From positions 1-39,633 of the forward strand of contig CAMCCX010000019.1 of the NCBI GenBank assembly GCA_945873305.1: a stretch of DNA of 39,633 nucleotides. The letters are read 5' to 3'. A program made the translations under genes and the position numbers. Shown piece by piece: positions 28,574 to 39,119 of this stretch; position 1 is the stretch's first letter; every line of letters starts with the position of its first letter. The stretch is from Akkermansia muciniphila (GTDB taxonomy: Bacteria; Verrucomicrobiota; Verrucomicrobiia; Verrucomicrobiales; Akkermansiaceae). The notes beneath the pieces are model-generated. The model was not told where the DNA came from and made no database searches. It saw nothing but the letters and a program-made list of their open reading frames with translations.

Positions 28574-28600
28574 TTTTCCTGACAGTTTTTCTGACAAGTT
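28574..28600 (+). repeat. Direct repeat near the integrase start (candidate arm sites)
   Basis: Two copies of TTTTYCTGACARRTT-like sequence (CTGACA at 28579..28584 and 28591..28596, 12 bases apart) lie between the tRNA and the integrase. Spaced repeats here would fit arm-type integrase or excisionase binding sites. Tentative. Confidence 0.35.
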
Positions 28601-28619
28601 GACTCGAAAGCCGGGGTCT

Positions 28620-29948
28620 ATGACCCGGAAACGCAAACGCCGTAGCAGTGTCGTGGAAATCGGCAACGGTCCCGCGAGAATCAAAATCTACACGATGAAC
28701 CGTCGGGATGGTTATCCCGAGTTCACGCTTTCATGGAAGGAGGCGGCCAGGCGCAAGACGCGCAGCTTCTCCTCGATGGATGAAGCACGGATGATCGCCC
28801 AGCAGATCAGCGTCCGTCTGACCAATGGCTGGACGGCCGCCGATGAAGCGACCCGCCGCGACATCGACCTGCTCCGCCACTGCGAGCAAGTAGCTCGGGA
28901 GCATGGAGTCGGTCTTTCCGCCGCGATGGACGAATGGGCCAGCGCACGGAAAGCCGCAGGTGAAATCCCACTGTCCGATGCGGTGCGGTTCTATCAAGCA
29001 AACCGGGCAGATCTATTTGCCGTCCGCACCAACGTCCAGGTAGCCGCCGAGTTCGTCGTGTCGCTGAAACGCAAGGGCGTGAGTGCCATCTATGTTCGGA
29101 ACGCGACTAGCAGCCTCAAGCGGGTCACCGATGCCATGCCGGGAAATATCGCAGATGTCAGCGTGGCCGACATCAACCGGTTCCTCGACAGCCTCAAGAC
29201 GCTTGGGCCGGTCAGCAAGAACGGCATTCGGCGCAACCTCGTTACGATGTTTGGATTCGCCAAGAAACAGGGCTACCTCCATCCCGACCGGAAAACTGCT
29301 GCGGAACAGAGCGACTCGTTCAAGGAGCCTGAGAAGGAGATCGAGATTTTTACGCCGGACGAGATGCGTGACATCCTGCTCGCCGCCCACGCCCGCATCC
29401 TGCCGCTCATCGCCATCGGCGGATTTTGCGGAATTCGGTCTGCCGAGGTCGAACGCCTCACCTGGCAGGACATCAAATGGGATCGCGGCCACATCGAGAT
29501 CGCCGGCCACAAGGCGAAGACGGCGGCGCGGCGACTCGTCCCCCTCCCCGAGAATCTCAAGGCGTGGCTTGCGCCATGGCGTGATGAAACCGGCCCTATC
29601 CTCACGATCAGCGATGTATCGGGTGCCTTGGGTGATACCGCAGTGAAGGCGAAAATCCCCGGCGGATGGCGTCAGAATGCCCTCAGACACTCGTTCATCA
29701 GCTATCGAGTATCACTGACAGGCGACGTAGCTCGAACCTCTCTGGAGGCAGGCAACTCCCCGAAAATGATCTTCCGCCACTATCGGGAAATCGTGGATGA
29801 GGAAGCCGCCCGGACATGGTTCGGGATGACGCCTCCCGATGGCTGGATGCCGACGGGACTCAAGCACAGCCTGCGGGAACGGATGCGGCGCTTACTGGCA
29901 CAAGATGGGACACCGCGTGTTGACAGCGATAACAGTGAGCAATCATGA
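28620..29948 (+). CDS. int: Tyrosine-type phage integrase with Asn in place of both box II histidines
   Basis: 442 residues from the ATG at 28620; a TTG at 28599 would add seven. An N-terminal Arg/Lys-rich segment and a core-binding domain precede the catalytic domain. GFCGIRSAEVERLTW carries the box I arginine; AGHKAKTAARRL the lysine; NALRHSFISY the box II arginine, with Asn where His is usual; EAGNSPKMIF has Asn where the second His is usual; and FRHYREIV holds the tyrosine. It is the gene next to tRNA-Ser and probably mediates integration there. Its end overlaps the following small HTH gene as ATGA. Confidence 0.9.
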   Translation: MTRKRKRRSSVVEIGNGPARIKIYTMNRRDGYPEFTLSWKEAARRKTRSFSSMDEARMIAQQISVRLTNGWTAADEATRRDIDLLRHCEQVAREHGVGLSAAMDEWASARKAAGEIPLSDAVRFYQANRADLFAVRTNVQVAAEFVVSLKRKGVSAIYVRNATSSLKRVTDAMPGNIADVSVADINRFLDSLKTLGPVSKNGIRRNLVTMFGFAKKQGYLHPDRKTAAEQSDSFKEPEKEIEIFTPDEMRDILLAAHARILPLIAIGGFCGIRSAEVERLTWQDIKWDRGHIEIAGHKAKTAARRLVPLPENLKAWLAPWRDETGPILTISDVSGALGDTAVKAKIPGGWRQNALRHSFISYRVSLTGDVARTSLEAGNSPKMIFRHYREIVDEEAARTWFGMTPPDGWMPTGLKHSLRERMRRLLAQDGTPRVDSDNSEQS

Positions 29949-32286: not shown

Positions 32287-33114
32287 TCAGAGGATTTGTT
32301 TCCAGCACCTCGCGTTGTTCGTCGCGTGGTAGTCGTTGGGGCGGATGATGCCGGGCGATGCGGTGGCGCTGGTGCCCGCCTGAAGCTGGTAGAACGAGAG
32401 CGTGCTGCCGACGATGACCCCGAGCACCCGGTCGAGCGGCAGCGTGTTGGAAACGATGGCGGCGAGCGCGTTGGCCCCGGTGCCGGTGAGCGTGGTGATG
32501 GTCGGATCGATCAGGATGCCGCCGGGAAGATGGGCGACGGGCACTTTGCCGCCCGCATCGAGCGGGGCGTATCCGTTCGCCACCCCCTTGTTGGTCTTGA
32601 TTTCGATGCCGGTTGCCGCCGGGTATGCCGGTTCCGCCGAAGTGGGAACTCCCTCGTCGCCCCGGTTCACGTCGTTCTCGACGACCACGAGGAAGGTGCG
32701 CGTGCTGGTCGGTTCGCCCGTGCCTTCGCGCCAGGTGATTTCGCCCATCAGGGTGATTTCGGAAAGCTCTTCGGAGGTGGGCGACCCGACGTTGAGCGCC
32801 GAGTTGAGTTGCAGCGTGTTGAAGCTGATAGAGCATTCGTAGGCAGGTGTGTCGTCGCCCTCCGATGGCATTAACCAGTCCGCGCTGTGTGCGAGATAGG
32901 ATCGGTCGAACTGGTTGCGCGGCTTGATGCCGATCTGGATTTCGAGATTACCGGGATCGCCAATCGTGACGGGCATGATGCCGTTTTCGAGGAACACGAC
33001 TTGGAGTTTGGTCGAGTCGCCGCGCTTGAAGCGCAAAGAGGAAACCGCGCTCCGCTGGCCGGGTCCCTGGATGAGTTGGAGCGTCTCAAGATCGACGTGG
33101 AGCTTCACGCCCAT
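32287..33114 (-). CDS. Phage tail fibre or baseplate-associated protein
   Basis: 275 residues. The first 170 residues are beta-rich (LRFKRGDSTKLQVVFLENG). The middle motif NGYAPLDAGGKVPVAHLPGG is typical of phage tail-fibre connectors (GYAPLDxxGKVPxxyLP), so it is identified as a tail fibre or its shaft attachment. The C-terminus (FYQLQAGTSATASPGIIRPN) resembles a fibre end. It follows the zinc-finger gene by 18 bases. Confidence 0.7.
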   Translation of the reverse strand: MGVKLHVDLETLQLIQGPGQRSAVSSLRFKRGDSTKLQVVFLENGIMPVTIGDPGNLEIQIGIKPRNQFDRSYLAHSADWLMPSEGDDTPAYECSISFNTLQLNSALNVGSPTSEELSEITLMGEITWREGTGEPTSTRTFLVVVENDVNRGDEGVPTSAEPAYPAATGIEIKTNKGVANGYAPLDAGGKVPVAHLPGGILIDPTITTLTGTGANALAAIVSNTLPLDRVLGVIVGSTLSFYQLQAGTSATASPGIIRPNDYHATNNARCWKQIL

Positions 33115-33132: not shown

Positions 33133-33690
33133 TCACTTGGCCGGCCATTTGCGCAGCGGGCAGTCCTGCGACCTGAAACGCGCTTTGGCATCGACAAAGC
33201 ATCCGCAGCGGGCGCAGGTCCGGTTCGACCGCAACTGGTCGCATGACGCGCAGACGGCAAGACGCGCCGCCACTTGCTGTGTGGTCAAATTCGGTTGTCT
33301 CTGAACGATGGCTTTCGTTTCAGAGCCAATCGCCTTGGCCAGACTGCCAGCCCTCTTGAGCAATCCCGGTGGTGCTGGCTGGTTGGCCTTGGCATGCGCC
33401 GATTTCCGCGATTTCACTCCACTCCGCCAGGATGATGCGCGTGCAGCGATCATGTCGCCGCCATAGGTTGCGAGAGTCGCTTCCACAACGGGCAATGCAG
33501 CGTTGAGTTCCTTGATGAAGGCATGTCCAGCCTGCGACAACATGCCGTTGGGCAGGAACATTCCTTCGCGTTGCACCGCGTTGAACGCTCGATGCGATTT
33601 CACCGGCATGGCCGATTTCAGCAAAACGCGAAATTGCGGGTCGTCCTGAAACGACTGAAGGCATGAGGGAATGATGTCTTTCTTGTCCAT
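33133..33690 (-). CDS. Small zinc-finger protein of the phage tail module
   Basis: 185 residues from the ATG at 33690, which overlaps the stop of the large upstream gene (TAATG). An open frame extends upstream but lies inside that gene. The C-terminus carries a cysteine cluster CASCDQLRSNRTCARCGCF plus a later C-P, ending in RKWPAK, the pattern of a small zinc-ribbon found in many phages (DUF6171-like). The rest (about 120 residues) is helical with a basic Ala/Lys-rich region. Role unknown. Confidence 0.65.
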   Translation of the reverse strand: MDKKDIIPSCLQSFQDDPQFRVLLKSAMPVKSHRAFNAVQREGMFLPNGMLSQAGHAFIKELNAALPVVEATLATYGGDMIAARASSWRSGVKSRKSAHAKANQPAPPGLLKRAGSLAKAIGSETKAIVQRQPNLTTQQVAARLAVCASCDQLRSNRTCARCGCFVDAKARFRSQDCPLRKWPAK

Positions 33691-35573
33691 TATCCGAAGC
33701 AGCTTGGGTAATAGGTTCCATTCGTGGCGGTGAATGATTGGCGGAAGGACGGGCTGCAATCCCCGGCGGTTTCGCAATAGCCGTCGCAGCAACCGTTGCC
33801 GACATTGTTGCAGTTGTCCCCTTCGTCGGAGTCATTCGGGATGCAGTTCCCCGCCGACGCGCAAGTGATGCAGTTGCCATCGTCCTCGGTGATCTCCGGA
33901 TCGTAGTTGGCCGCGTAGGGGTTTGTGCATCCGCTGCCGCACATTTTAGGGAACTTGAACTCGTGCTGATCGTTGGACTGCAATTTCTTGATCGGAAGGT
34001 ATGCGTTGGCACGAATCAGGATGGAATCCCCCAAGCCAGCTTGAACCGACTCCGAGTAGTCGATGGACTGCCCTGGAGTCATGTTTGGATTGTCGATCTT
34101 TTTGCCGTGGACATAGACCGACACCCAATAGGTGCCGTTCGCCTCCGGTGATGGAGCAGCGCCAAGAGTCACACGGAAGCCGAGTTGGATCTGGAACGGC
34201 GGTGCCGTGTTGTCGAGGAAACACGGTGGATACCACGTCACGTCCTCAATGGTGATCTGTGCGGGTTGAATCCTCGGCGGCGGCGGGGGAGGAGGAGGTG
34301 GTGGGGGCGGCGGCGGTGGCGGAGGGGGCGGCGGTGGGATGAATACACAAGCGTAAGTGAGGCATCCCATAGCATCCATACCGGTGACAACCCGCACGGT
34401 CCCGGCAGGACAGTCAGGTGGCGGAGGGCATCCGACCGGGACGCACGCATAGATCGGGCACCCGTCCGCTTCCACTCCGGTTTGCACGCGCACCATATTT
34501 GGTCCGCAGATGATAGGCTCACCGCAAGGGTTTCCGATAGGCTCGCACGGACCCCATATCACGCAGCCGTTTTCATCAACTCCTTTGCCTCTGGAGACTT
34601 CACCCGGAGGACATGCGGGAGGATCACCGCAGGCGACGGGCACGCAAGCATAGGTAGGACACCCTTTCGCATCTTGCCCGGTAATGACGAGTCTGCTGCC
34701 CACACCGCACATCGGCGGGTTAGGACAAGGTGGCTGGCAATTCCACACCGCACAGCCGACGTCATCGAAGCCAATGGCAACCGCGATCTGTCCCTCTGGA
34801 CATACGGGCGGGGCGGCGCAAAACACGGGCTGGCAAGCGTAGGTAGGACAGCCTCGCTCATCCCTGCCCGTTTCTATCACCTTTGAGTCGGGTCCACAAG
34901 ATGGTGGATCACCGCACGGTTGACGGTCATCCGGGGCGCAATACCAGATCGCGCAGCCGAGGTCATTGAAGCCGCTGACTCGTGCGGTGAAGCCTTCCAT
35001 GCAAGCGGGCGGGTCGTCGCAAAACACAGGTTGGCAGAGATAGATTCGGCAGCCGCAGGTATCGAAGCCTCCGGTCACGAGCTTGAAGTTTGGTCCGCAA
35101 TTTGGCGGGACTTCGCATGGGATGGCGCAATCGTCAGGATCGACAGGCGGGTAAATCGGCGGAACGACCGGGCACTCGGCGGGTGGCGGGTTTCCTCCGG
35201 TCGGTGGGATAAATGGGCTTGTGATAGGTGGCGAATCGACGGGCGTCGGGTATTGCGCTTTTCCCTGCTGATCCCATCCGTCATAGACGGTGCCGCACTG
35301 TGGCGAATAAACCGTCCAGTCGTAGGCAAGAAACTCTTCAACGCCGAAGTCGGCGTTCCTAACCACCCGGCTCACTGCTGCTCCGGTGGTGGTCGAAGAC
35401 TTGGTCAGGTAGGTGAGATGAAACAGTCCGTGATGATAGACGATCCACCGTTGCGAGGTCGCATGGTTGAACGGATCGGTGATTGGGTCAGCCCATCCGT
35501 TCCGGCGCACCGCCCAACCTCTGCGTGCGTATTCAGCCGCCAGCGGCCAAATCATGCCATGTCCCACGCTCAT
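33690..35573 (-). CDS. Multidomain tail protein: Tad2/DUF2829-like head, eight Cys-rich repeats, polyproline hinge
   Basis: 627 residues. Residues 6-91 resemble the Tad2/DUF2829 domain (LAAEYARRGWAVRRNGW at the start and EEFLAYDWTVY at the end). Residues 153-410 hold eight repeats of about 33 residues with the pattern C-x2-P-P-x-C-x(15)-G-C-x(4-5)-C, like antistasin or VWC knots. Residues 413-433 are an uninterrupted run of 21 prolines. The last 190 residues include a beta domain and a CTNPYAANYDPEITEDDGNC segment, a known calcium-binding-type extracellular repeat, then more cysteines. It is likely an exposed virion protein; the use of a Tad2-like domain in it is unusual. It overlaps the next gene by 4 bases. 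Confidence 0.7.
   Translation of the reverse strand: MSVGHGMIWPLAAEYARRGWAVRRNGWADPITDPFNHATSQRWIVYHHGLFHLTYLTKSSTTTGAAVSRVVRNADFGVEEFLAYDWTVYSPQCGTVYDGWDQQGKAQYPTPVDSPPITSPFIPPTGGNPPPAECPVVPPIYPPVDPDDCAIPCEVPPNCGPNFKLVTGGFDTCGCRIYLCQPVFCDDPPACMEGFTARVSGFNDLGCAIWYCAPDDRQPCGDPPSCGPDSKVIETGRDERGCPTYACQPVFCAAPPVCPEGQIAVAIGFDDVGCAVWNCQPPCPNPPMCGVGSRLVITGQDAKGCPTYACVPVACGDPPACPPGEVSRGKGVDENGCVIWGPCEPIGNPCGEPIICGPNMVRVQTGVEADGCPIYACVPVGCPPPPDCPAGTVRVVTGMDAMGCLTYACVFIPPPPPPPPPPPPPPPPPPPPPRIQPAQITIEDVTWYPPCFLDNTAPPFQIQLGFRVTLGAAPSPEANGTYWVSVYVHGKKIDNPNMTPGQSIDYSESVQAGLGDSILIRANAYLPIKKLQSNDQHEFKFPKMCGSGCTNPYAANYDPEITEDDGNCITCASAGNCIPNDSDEGDNCNNVGNGCCDGYCETAGDCSPSFRQSFTATNGTYYPSCFG
34275..34337 (-). 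repeat. Polyproline-encoding tract (21 codons)
   Basis: 21 consecutive CCN codons on the minus strand, using all four third bases. It forms a stiff hinge between the Cys-rich repeats and the C-terminal domain. Mixed codons speak against a simple DNA slippage product. Confidence 0.9.
34344..35117 (-). repeat. Eight tandem Cys-rich coding repeats
   Basis: Eight copies of about 96-105 bases encode the cysteine-rich modules of the large tail protein. The opening CxxPPxC occurs at residues 153, 185, 220, 252, 283, 315, 350 and 382. The copies differ clearly in sequence, so they are old or positively diversified rather than recent duplications. Confidence 0.85.
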
Positions 35574-36022
35574 TGTGTGCTTGTGGGTTGGAACGTCCTG
35601 CGGATGTTCTCATACAAAGGGACAATCGGGCAGGTTCCATAAACGGCGTTCGGATACATCGGATCAATCACGGGGGCTGTGTCGGCAGGGCGCGGGTAGG
35701 GCTTCTTGCCCTGCCAACGGTCGCCGCCATAGCCATAGCCGCCCTGCATCTCCAGGCACGCGGGAGTCAGCACGGTCCAGTCTTCGGCATAAAAATCCTC
35801 GACCACGAAATCCGTGTTGCGAATGACCCGAGTCGCCTTGTTTCCGGTGACTGGAGCGCGGTAGAGCAGCCAGAACAGGGCGTTTTGATAGACAACCCAC
35901 CGCAAGGCGCGGCCCGTGTCGCCAAACAACTCGAGATCATCCCATCCGGCACGACGTACCGCCCACCCGCGACGGGCGTATTCGGCGGCCAGTGGCCAAA
36001 TCATGCCAGAGCCGTAAGTCAT
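35570..36022 (-). CDS. Short protein with the same Tad2/DUF2829-like domain
   Basis: 150 residues. The first 90 residues align with the start of the large protein downstream (MIWPLAAEYARRGWAVRR-GW and ...VEDFYAEDWTVL), showing a common domain. After it comes a Gly/Tyr/Pro-rich tail. The domain resembles Tad2 (DUF2829), the phage protein that binds Thoeris signal molecules, from the AxxxxxxGxxVxRxxW opening and AxDW closing. In a tail module it may instead be a structural use of that fold. Coupled to both neighbours through 4-base overlaps. Confidence 0.7.
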   Translation of the reverse strand: MTYGSGMIWPLAAEYARRGWAVRRAGWDDLELFGDTGRALRWVVYQNALFWLLYRAPVTGNKATRVIRNTDFVVEDFYAEDWTVLTPACLEMQGGYGYGGDRWQGKKPYPRPADTAPVIDPMYPNAVYGTCPIVPLYENIRRTFQPTSTQ

Positions 36023-36765
36023 GGGTTCGGAACGAGGTCGCGGTCGATGGCGAGGCGGAAGGTCTTGGACGAACGGATGACTTCGTCGGACAACGCGCCC
36101 GGTTCCAGGTAATCAACGCGCCACTCAATTTCCGCGATGGCGTCGAAGGTTGTCTGGTAGTCGGCCTGATAGTTGGCGAGCGCGTTGAGGAGTTCCGGGA
36201 TGTCGAGATCGACCAGGATGCGGTAGCGCGGGCGGTCGCTGGTGCCGATGATTTCCAACCCGCCGTTGCTCTGAACCAGCACGGTTTCGCCGTCGAACTC
36301 GCGGATGTTCATGACGATGGATGCCATCGCCATCGTTTGCAGCTCCTCACCCTTCAGGAAACCGATGTCGAGAAACACCTTGTCGCCGTATTTGAGGAAC
36401 ATGACCGCCTGGCTGGCTTGCGACGATGACGGCGTGATGCCGGGAACCGAAACCGCGCCGGATCGCAGGTCGATGTTCACCTCGATTCCGATGCCGTCGT
36501 TGAAATTGGTGTCCTCGATGCCCATGGCGACTTCCAGCGGGGTCGAGGGGCCGGTCGCATTGCTGGCGATGACCTTCACGAGATAGACCCCGGCAGAGAT
36601 TGCCGCTCCGCTGACGAGGCCAGACGAGTTGATCGACATGCCAGACGGCAGACCATCAGCGGTCCATGATGTCGGCGTGTTGGTCGCCTGCATTTGATAC
36701 TCGAAATACTGCCCCTTGCGGTAGCCAAGGACGGAGGTGGTGTTGGAAATGACGGGAATGGCCAT
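36019..36765 (-). CDS. Tail-associated protein with an N-terminal putative Ig (He_PIG) domain
   Basis: 248 residues. Residues 17-75 show the He_PIG pattern: GQYFEYQMQATNTPTSWTADG then LPSGMSINSSGLVSG and an ending of VKVIASNATGPST. He_PIG is common in verrucomicrobial surface proteins. The remaining 170 residues form a second, uncharacterised beta domain. Between a large tail protein and the Tad2-like protein, it is likely part of the tail tip or baseplate. Confidence 0.7.
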   Translation of the reverse strand: MAIPVISNTTSVLGYRKGQYFEYQMQATNTPTSWTADGLPSGMSINSSGLVSGAAISAGVYLVKVIASNATGPSTPLEVAMGIEDTNFNDGIGIEVNIDLRSGAVSVPGITPSSSQASQAVMFLKYGDKVFLDIGFLKGEELQTMAMASIVMNIREFDGETVLVQSNGGLEIIGTSDRPRYRILVDLDIPELLNALANYQADYQTTFDAIAEIEWRVDYLEPGALSDEVIRSSKTFRLAIDRDLVPNP

Positions 36766-36767
36766 GA

Positions 36768-39119
36768 TTATTGGATGGTTGCTTTGCCTAGACTTTCGGG
36801 TTCATCGCCGGTGAGGGTCGCCTTGAGTCCGTTGAACGCGACGAGTCCGCGTGGGTCGGTCTGGTGGTCGTCGGTGTCGAAGCGAACGAGACGACCGCGC
36901 AGGATGAAGTTGGCGGTGGTCATCGTGGTTTCAGTCGCCTCGGTGGCTCCGTAGATCACACGGTCCACGACGCAGGTATCGGCGGAATCGACGATCTTGC
37001 GGACCACACGCAGGCCGAAGCCGTGTGAGGAAGGAATGCTCGTGAGCATGAAGCTGTGATCGAGCGACGGCGGCAGGAAAGTGACATCCGCGATGTTGCT
37101 CGGGCTTGGCGGATTTCCCGATGGCAAGCCGATGTCGATGGCAACGCCCCAATGAACGAGGGTGTTCGAGTTGAACACAGCGGCGACAAACGAGAAATCG
37201 AGCGAGAGCCGTTTGCCGAGTCGCAGTTGCTTGCCGTTGACGTGGATGCGAAACAACTCGCGGGAGAAGTCCGAGGGGTAGAATACCTTCTCGCCCGCGA
37301 TGACCTGTTCGACCTGATAAAAACCGCGCCCGTCCCATGCAAAGAATCCCGGCGCGTTGAGCTTGGTCGAGCGGCGGCCGAGATAGCCGGGGATCACCAG
37401 AGGAGCTGTCGGGTCGGTGTATTGATAAATCACACCTGTCGCGGGCGAGGTCGGCAGGACGTTGGCCGTCGTGAAGACAAGCGGATCGACATGGACGGCT
37501 GGTAGCAGGCCGCCAACTCGTGGCAGGTCGGCGGGTTTGATCGAGGGCACGTCCTTTGCCTCGATCTTCTGGCGAGTGGGAAACACCTCAAAGAGTTCCG
37601 GCAGTTCCCACGCGGCGATGACGGTTTGTGAGGTGGAGCTGACGCCGGGTGGCGAGGTAGGGATGAATGTTTCCAGGTCTTCGACGCGCTCGCCAAGGTC
37701 ATCAAGGATCAGTTGCAGCCCCTCGATTTGGGCGATGGTGTGGCCGTGCGTTTGGAAAACGGACACCGGGCCTGCGGTGGAAATGGTGACGACATAGCCG
37801 TTCAGCGCAGGCGCTTCCGCGAAAGTGATGCTGAGATCATCCTCGCCATCCAAGGTGACCGACAGCGGCTCCACGATGGCGCGACTACCGCCGTTTTGCC
37901 GAACGGTGACGTGGAGGTCGCGGGTGCCGAGGTTGTGGCTGATGGTGAATGAAAAATTCACACCGTCACCGATGGGCGCGACGTAGTGCTGTGAGCCGGT
38001 GATAATCTGGTCGGGCGTGAACGGAACATACGTCCTGCCGTAGGGCGGTCGCAGCCAGTCGATGTTCGCGGCGGTTTCGAGTCCCTCCCAGTTGAGTTCG
38101 CGAATCAGCAAGATCGGAGCGCGGAACGGCGTGAGCGTGTAGGTCTTGTCAGGGTCGTTCTCATCTTGAATTGCGACTTCAATTTCCAAGTCGGGCTTTA
38201 ATTCGGCAGCTCCGCGCAGCGCGGCGGCGATTTCAGCGGTGTTGAGATCGAGGATGACGGTCGGATCGCCGGGCGGTGCGGAAAACACCGCGACTTCGAT
38301 CAACTCCTGGTCAATGCCGGCCATATCGCCGTTGAAGGTGATGTGGGCGATGTTGGTCGCCGGGTTGCTGACGGAGAATGATCCTCCATCGTCAGCCAGC
38401 ACCGTGAGCGCGTCCTGAATTTCCTCGGGGCCGTCATCCACGGACAATTCGCGGGTCTTCTTGAACCCACGGCGCAACTGATAGGTGCCCTTGAAGGTTG
38501 GCTGGATTTTGAGTGCCTGGATTTCGGGCCAGAGCGTGGTGGCCGATGCCCCGCCTGCTTGCACCTCGCTCACAGTAGGCGCGGGCGGCACGATCAGTTC
38601 GAAGCTCGCGGTGGATGCGAGCGGGGCCTGAACGAGCCGGACCTCGTGGCGATATTGTCCGGCCACCTGTGTCGAGCGAACGCGCACGAACGAGACGGGC
38701 CGCAATTCTGAAAGCAGTCCCCCGGCGGAGTATCCGGATAGTGCGATTTCCTGCAGGCCGGTGGAAATGATCCACGAGCCATCCTGTTTTCCGACCACCG
38801 CGTCATCCAATCCGATGGCGGCAAGTGCGGTTTGCACAGCGCCCGCCGTGGCGTCGTGAGAAATCGGCGCGGTATCCTGGCCGTCCACTCGCAACACAAA
38901 GAAGCCAGATGTCGGGCGAGCATCGACAAATCCGATGGAGGCGCGGATGTGCGTCACAATCCTCTGGACCTCGATTGGCGAGCCTTCGAGCGATTCGGCG
39001 AAGCGCAAGCCTATGCGCACCTTGTCACCCTGGACGAAGGCCGGGAATGAAATCGCGCTGCCGCCAAGCGTCGTGGTCAGCCTGCGAGTGGTGAGATTGG
39101 CGTAAACGGTGGCCTGCAT
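36768..39119 (-). CDS. Large phage tail or baseplate protein
   Basis: 783 residues, the largest gene of the module. It is beta-rich with repeated domains around 100 residues each; hydrophobic-Gly motifs such as VQTALAAIGLDDAVVGKQDG and ALTVLADDGGSF suggest several copies of one fold in the first half. A later region with HNLGTRDLHVTVRQNG is commonly seen in tail-tip or fibre proteins. No specific Pfam domain was identified. Start is the ATG at 39119, inside a hairpin (see separate entry). Confidence 0.7.
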   Translation of the reverse strand: MQATVYANLTTRRLTTTLGGSAISFPAFVQGDKVRIGLRFAESLEGSPIEVQRIVTHIRASIGFVDARPTSGFFVLRVDGQDTAPISHDATAGAVQTALAAIGLDDAVVGKQDGSWIISTGLQEIALSGYSAGGLLSELRPVSFVRVRSTQVAGQYRHEVRLVQAPLASTASFELIVPPAPTVSEVQAGGASATTLWPEIQALKIQPTFKGTYQLRRGFKKTRELSVDDGPEEIQDALTVLADDGGSFSVSNPATNIAHITFNGDMAGIDQELIEVAVFSAPPGDPTVILDLNTAEIAAALRGAAELKPDLEIEVAIQDENDPDKTYTLTPFRAPILLIRELNWEGLETAANIDWLRPPYGRTYVPFTPDQIITGSQHYVAPIGDGVNFSFTISHNLGTRDLHVTVRQNGGSRAIVEPLSVTLDGEDDLSITFAEAPALNGYVVTISTAGPVSVFQTHGHTIAQIEGLQLILDDLGERVEDLETFIPTSPPGVSSTSQTVIAAWELPELFEVFPTRQKIEAKDVPSIKPADLPRVGGLLPAVHVDPLVFTTANVLPTSPATGVIYQYTDPTAPLVIPGYLGRRSTKLNAPGFFAWDGRGFYQVEQVIAGEKVFYPSDFSRELFRIHVNGKQLRLGKRLSLDFSFVAAVFNSNTLVHWGVAIDIGLPSGNPPSPSNIADVTFLPPSLDHSFMLTSIPSSHGFGLRVVRKIVDSADTCVVDRVIYGATEATETTMTTANFILRGRLVRFDTDDHQTDPRGLVAFNGLKATLTGDEPESLGKATIQ

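Follow-up and report, generated by a model that had tools for sequence, protein, structure and literature searches.

Two adjacent genes in the tail region of an apparent Akkermansia prophage begin with related segments of about 90 residues whose opening and closing motifs recall Tad2 (DUF2829). Tad2 has been studied as a counter-defence sponge. This raises the question of whether the shared head domain serves the virion structurally or equips its tail against host defence, both of which had been suggested in an earlier note on the interval 35301-36022, i.e. the second head plus the entire gene of the 150-aa protein. The window, the whole stretch of 39,633 nucleotides analysed here, corresponds to a complete contig (C19) of a draft genome of 3.06 Mb. 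Our results favour the structural reading: the head probably belongs, as a remote member, to the Tad2/DUF2829 (PF11195) superfamily and serves as a structural module in the tail of the phage.

The proposed relationship between the N-termini of the 150-aa (P0001) and the 627-aa protein (P0002) was borne out, as was the repetition of the underlying coding DNA. The two proteins have in common an N-terminal domain of about 90 aa, with 64 of 129 residues identical between them (50%, E 8e-35), and a direct repeat of 72 nt with 81% identity occurs in both genes, the copies being 449 bases apart (35488-35559 and 35937-36008). Over the entire heads, DNA identity amounts to only 59% and dS to about 1.5, which is near saturation. 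Hence, the duplication is old, and the 72-nt repeat represents an old duplication held by selection at the protein level. Median dN/dS values of 0.10 and 0.12 were obtained for the two copies, both of which are under purifying selection. The most conserved residues are those of the core (RR..W and ADW). Since independent viral contigs and Verrucomicrobiota genomes also contain the pair, it is not an assembly artefact.

Judged from translations only, the left part of the window appears to carry ordinary bacterial genes. Beyond the integrase (28599-29948), the remainder of the contig is occupied by tail-type genes on the opposite strand, and we read this segment as a prophage truncated by the end of the contig. 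The stop codon of the gene for the 248-aa protein overlaps the start of the 150-aa gene, and the stop of the latter overlaps the start of the 627-aa gene, in each case as ATGA; these three genes are therefore coupled. A tape-measure gene is located upstream in the related locus L019, and tail-type matches were obtained for surrounding genes. The conserved trio of the 783-aa, 248-aa and head genes, this tape-measure gene and the tail or virion matches of the neighbours place the head gene in a conserved tail operon. A 219-aa open reading frame (33133-33792) overlaps the end of the 627-aa gene; its C-terminus matches DUF6171 (E 4.7e-7) and phrog_13558 (E 1.8e-14), and its true start probably lies further downstream.

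Features of the prophage segment and of the two head genes (positions in the window)
Feature	Position	Strand	Remarks
Phage integrase	28599..29948	+	marks the prophage edge adjoining the tail genes
275-aa protein	32287..33114	-	minor-tail-protein matches; downstream of the head genes
627-aa protein (P0002)	33690..35573	-	ORF confirmed; start overlaps stop of 150-aa gene (ATGA)
Conserved C-terminal region, 627-aa protein	33870..34268	-	contains GCTNPYAANYDPEITEDDGNC motif
Poly-proline tract coding region, 627-aa gene	34275..34338	-
Cys-rich repeats (GxDxxGCPxYxC), 627-aa protein	34344..35111	-	7 matched by the pattern used
Head domain with proposed Tad2 fold, copy 2 (residues 7-94 of P0002)	35292..35555	-
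72-nt direct repeat, copy in 627-aa gene	35488..35559	-	81% to 35937-36008
150-aa stand-alone head protein (P0001)	35570..36022	-	ORF confirmed; start overlaps stop of 248-aa gene (ATGA)
Head domain with proposed Tad2 fold, copy 1 (residues 7-92 of P0001)	35747..36004	-
72-nt direct repeat, copy in 150-aa gene	35937..36008	-	81% to 35488-35559
248-aa protein, putative Ig domain (He_PIG)	36019..36765	-	conserved neighbour, directly upstream of 150-aa head gene
783-aa virion/tail-type protein	36768..39119	-	conserved neighbour; virion/tail matches

In the 627-aa protein the N-terminal head is followed by a linker, Cys-rich repeats, a poly-proline tract and a conserved C-terminal region. The latter is 82-92% identical in most close relatives, and the number of Cys-rich repeats differs among them. 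N-terminal fusion to a linker and a Cys-rich protein within a conserved tail operon fits the structural use envisaged earlier. The head of this appendage-like protein would mediate oligomerisation, docking to the tail tip, or both, with the Pro-rich linker, the Cys-rich repeats and the C-terminal region projecting outward. The 150-aa product, an ancient head-only duplicate, may serve the fused head as a partner or as an adaptor subunit, packing together with it or against it. That the proteins are present in the virion, that the head oligomerises and that the 150-aa product is an adaptor are inferences; for oligomerisation, the analogy is to the Tad2 tetramer. The protein contains 48 Cys residues in all, and the poly-proline tract after the Cys-rich repeats comprises 21 residues. 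Its relatives range from 442 to 686 aa, some of them cut by contig ends, and vary in Cys number and poly-Pro length.

The head might instead bind another small molecule, a glycan or a component of the host surface, and thus serve as a receptor- or ligand-binding element at the tail tip. The parent fold has binding loops, the head loops differ in length among relatives, and the gene lies in the distal part of the tail operon. Nevertheless, we regard this as unlikely, because conservation is concentrated in the core residues and variation in the Cys-rich region, and because head 1 is under strong constraint (dN/dS about 0.10), which is not typical of receptor-binding parts.

The assignment of the structural module to the Tad2 superfamily depends on family-level comparisons. 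Full-length P0001 and P0002 gave no Tad2-like match in Pfam at E<=1, single-sequence searches of both against Pfam, PHROG, PADLOC and PDB did not assign the heads to any family at a significant level, and neither did a scan of the head family against NCBIfam. Against PF11195, the P0001 head obtained 11.7 bits (E 0.4) and did not reach the gathering cut-off of 25 bits. Among diverse relatives, PF11195 (Tad2-like) was matched by 9 out of 13 in a first set and by 15 out of 21 in a wider set, with a best E of 5e-4. The 21 members were compared to 24,736 Pfam models, and the only other match was to a glycosyltransferase family in one member (0.077). When the head-family profile was run against 177,635 PDB sequences, ranks 1-7 were exactly the seven Tad2/AcrIIA7 sequences (E 0.0038-0.057), which are the same seven retrieved by true DUF2829 queries. 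DUF2829 sequences scored 4.0-16.1 bits with the head-family HMM, mostly above all shuffled sequences (maximum 5.8). In the reverse direction, natural heads reached up to 10.5 bits and overlapped with the shuffled set (maximum 6.5), and reversed heads scored below zero in the HMM control. In the alignment of the head family to the DUF2829 profile by hhalign, only the N-terminal 22 columns were aligned, which is a weakness. With 15 of 21 members matching, the uniform top PDB ranks and these controls, the remote profile kinship is specific to PF11195.

Structure prediction gave a divided picture. The AlphaFold model of the P0001 head, built from a shallow alignment, was weak (pLDDT 66), and no Tad2 structure was among its top 50 matches. 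For the compact relative L080, modelled with the window heads in the alignment (pLDDT 68.5), the best seven PDB matches were Tad2 chains (probability 0.82-1.00, E 0.017-0.15, TM about 0.5), and the top named matches in a viral library were DUF2829 and Tad2-like proteins. The fold evidence thus comes from L080 and not from the window head, although both models display an identical order of elements (helix, strand, three strands, short helix, strand). Tad2 came first in both the profile and the fold rankings, which is hard to obtain by chance even though the E-values are modest. Consequently, the resemblance to Tad2/DUF2829 noted at the outset is supported at the remote level, by the family profile and the predicted fold of L080, whereas neither window protein alone passes a threshold.

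Convergence of an unrelated head on the helix-strand-W...DW pattern is improbable. It would account for the negative single-sequence searches, the restriction of the hhalign alignment to 22 columns and the moderate confidence of the models; in contrast, profile and fold comparison, which are partly independent, both place Tad2 at the top of the whole PDB, and among the Pfam models PF11195 has almost no competitor.

According to a review (PMC12043709), the elements that form the ligand pocket of Tad2 include the last helix, the loop preceding it, and the loop that connects strands 1 and 2. Based on this location we placed the corresponding stretches from sequence. In the four solved Tad2 proteins they carry WNGKxM and WxxSQxD (SV in ModTad2). 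In the 21 tail heads these signatures are lost: WNGK was found in 0/21, the Trp at position -12 in 0/21, and the SQ pair is missing. What is retained is an acidic residue (mainly the one at -6), the Ala and the final DW. A few rows of the signature table were anchored on a wrong Trp, namely that of GWAV in three close-relative heads and the last Trp in L068; visual inspection showed that NGK and SQ are missing from the correct positions as well. Comparison of the head proteins to defence and counter-defence families yielded no match. A ThsA STALD domain was found in none of 142 genomes of the order by a search that had no responding positive control. In addition, the window proteins, with 150 aa and 627 aa, differ in size from a stand-alone Tad2 of about 80-100 aa. 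Since the WNGKxM and WxxSQxD signatures are absent, the anti-defence role considered in the earlier note is unsupported.

Remote homology and fold, together with the several ligands bound by Tad2 relatives (gcADPR and cyclic dinucleotides, PMC12043709; His-ADPR, PMC13299392), would allow the heads to be functional sponges, expressed late or carried by the tail, for a Thoeris or CBASS signal nucleotide, but this is very unlikely given that all 21 lack WNGKxM as well as the Trp and SQ of WxxSQxD, and that the gene is part of a tail operon and its product is joined to an appendage-like protein. It is likewise very unlikely that the tail-borne domain still binds a nucleotide-derived signal via an altered pocket, so that the virion would bring a counter-defence sponge into the cell or pre-load it in the course of assembly.

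A tail module belonging to the Tad2 superfamily, as we prefer to see the head, differs from the characterized members of this group. The predicted fold of L080 resembles SPO1 Tad2 (gp34.65; 8sme, 8smf) and ModTad2 (9eib), and the motifs G..hxRxxW and AxDW are common to these proteins and the heads. SPO1 Tad2 and ModTad2 are stand-alone proteins of about 90 aa with WNGKxM and WxxSQxD or WxxSVxD, which the heads do not possess. Unlike them, the head domain is encoded in a tail operon, either fused to or accompanying an appendage-like protein. AcrIIA7/HgmTad2 (8kbi, 9kzr), also of the PF11195 family, provided the best single PDB match of the head profile (E 0.0038); in contrast to the heads, it was deposited as an inhibitor that stands alone and bears the complete signature. 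In the part of the phage SpaA1 report drawn on here (PMC3398947), the DUF2829 gene 7 is located in the head-morphogenesis region between the genes of a minor head protein and the scaffold, and the DUF2829 genes 60 and 61 are arranged in tandem. To the extent of this description, both a position in a structural region and tandem copies are precedented in the superfamily, although the SpaA1 proteins are short and stand-alone with no tail-appendage fusion. DUF2829 proteins from the same phylum (L039-L048) show remote sequence kinship to the heads, but most of them keep WNGKxM and WLASQxD. Two of these loci, L046 (1495-2577) and L048 (1282-2208), each encode a canonical DUF2829 domain preceded by an extension in which PMTRGxYN...W.PK..FE occurs; this adds another fused architecture to those of the superfamily in Verrucomicrobiota.

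The literature searched did not yield any tail appendage reported to carry a Tad2-like domain as its N-terminal module. On the basis of homology, phage genes encoding Tad2-like domains now receive the names 'Thoeris anti-defense 2-like' or 'anti-CRISPR'. A Tad2 fold that occurs in a conserved tail operon, fused and without pocket signatures, implies that such a name alone is no proof of anti-defence. It also raises the question of whether the sponge derived from a virion assembly domain, or the reverse.

Close relatives of the head pair were present in 14 viral contigs, and those that reach far enough display the order 783 / 248 / 150 / long protein. The 150-aa protein is conserved in L001-L013, L018, L019 and L038. 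The close relatives that bear a name are MAGs of Akkermansiaceae and Verrucomicrobia, one each, and we therefore take the host to belong to Verrucomicrobiota. Distant relatives were identified by protein and profile searches within the same bacterial order. Those with enough flanking sequence (L030-L033, L078, L079) keep the trio of 783-like, 248-like and head protein but possess a single head gene, in which a Gly/Pro-rich linker and a distal part follow the head. Most of the distant relatives are encoded in open frames of roughly 300-600 aa, and the lengths of the head loops vary within the family. In the tree of heads, the single-copy relatives are placed outside, copy 2 forms one fully supported clade, and copy 1 constitutes the less resolved remainder. 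This is most simply explained by duplication of a single fused gene in the ancestor of the window's group, with one copy retaining only the head.

A search of the phylum with the family profile returned almost nothing outside the window's order; the sole other match, L084, was rejected as a multi-pass membrane-type protein by eye. The P0001 and L080 heads had no tblastn matches in annotated phages. The L064 head gave only matches with E 6-8 in Pseudomonas phages, which extend from the final part of a baseplate-spike gene into the gene that follows it and were taken as chance.

A very divergent adjacent pair was observed in L070 (1315-2425), in which a stand-alone head of 117 aa is accompanied by a head with a different domain fused to it. 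This suggests that the combination of stand-alone and fused heads may have arisen more than once. In a prophage on contig G060:C12 (L037, 5894-7187), the copy-2 head is distributed over two reading frames, which points to decay or to an error in the assembly. Both head copies are in open frames in a second prophage of this contig (L036).
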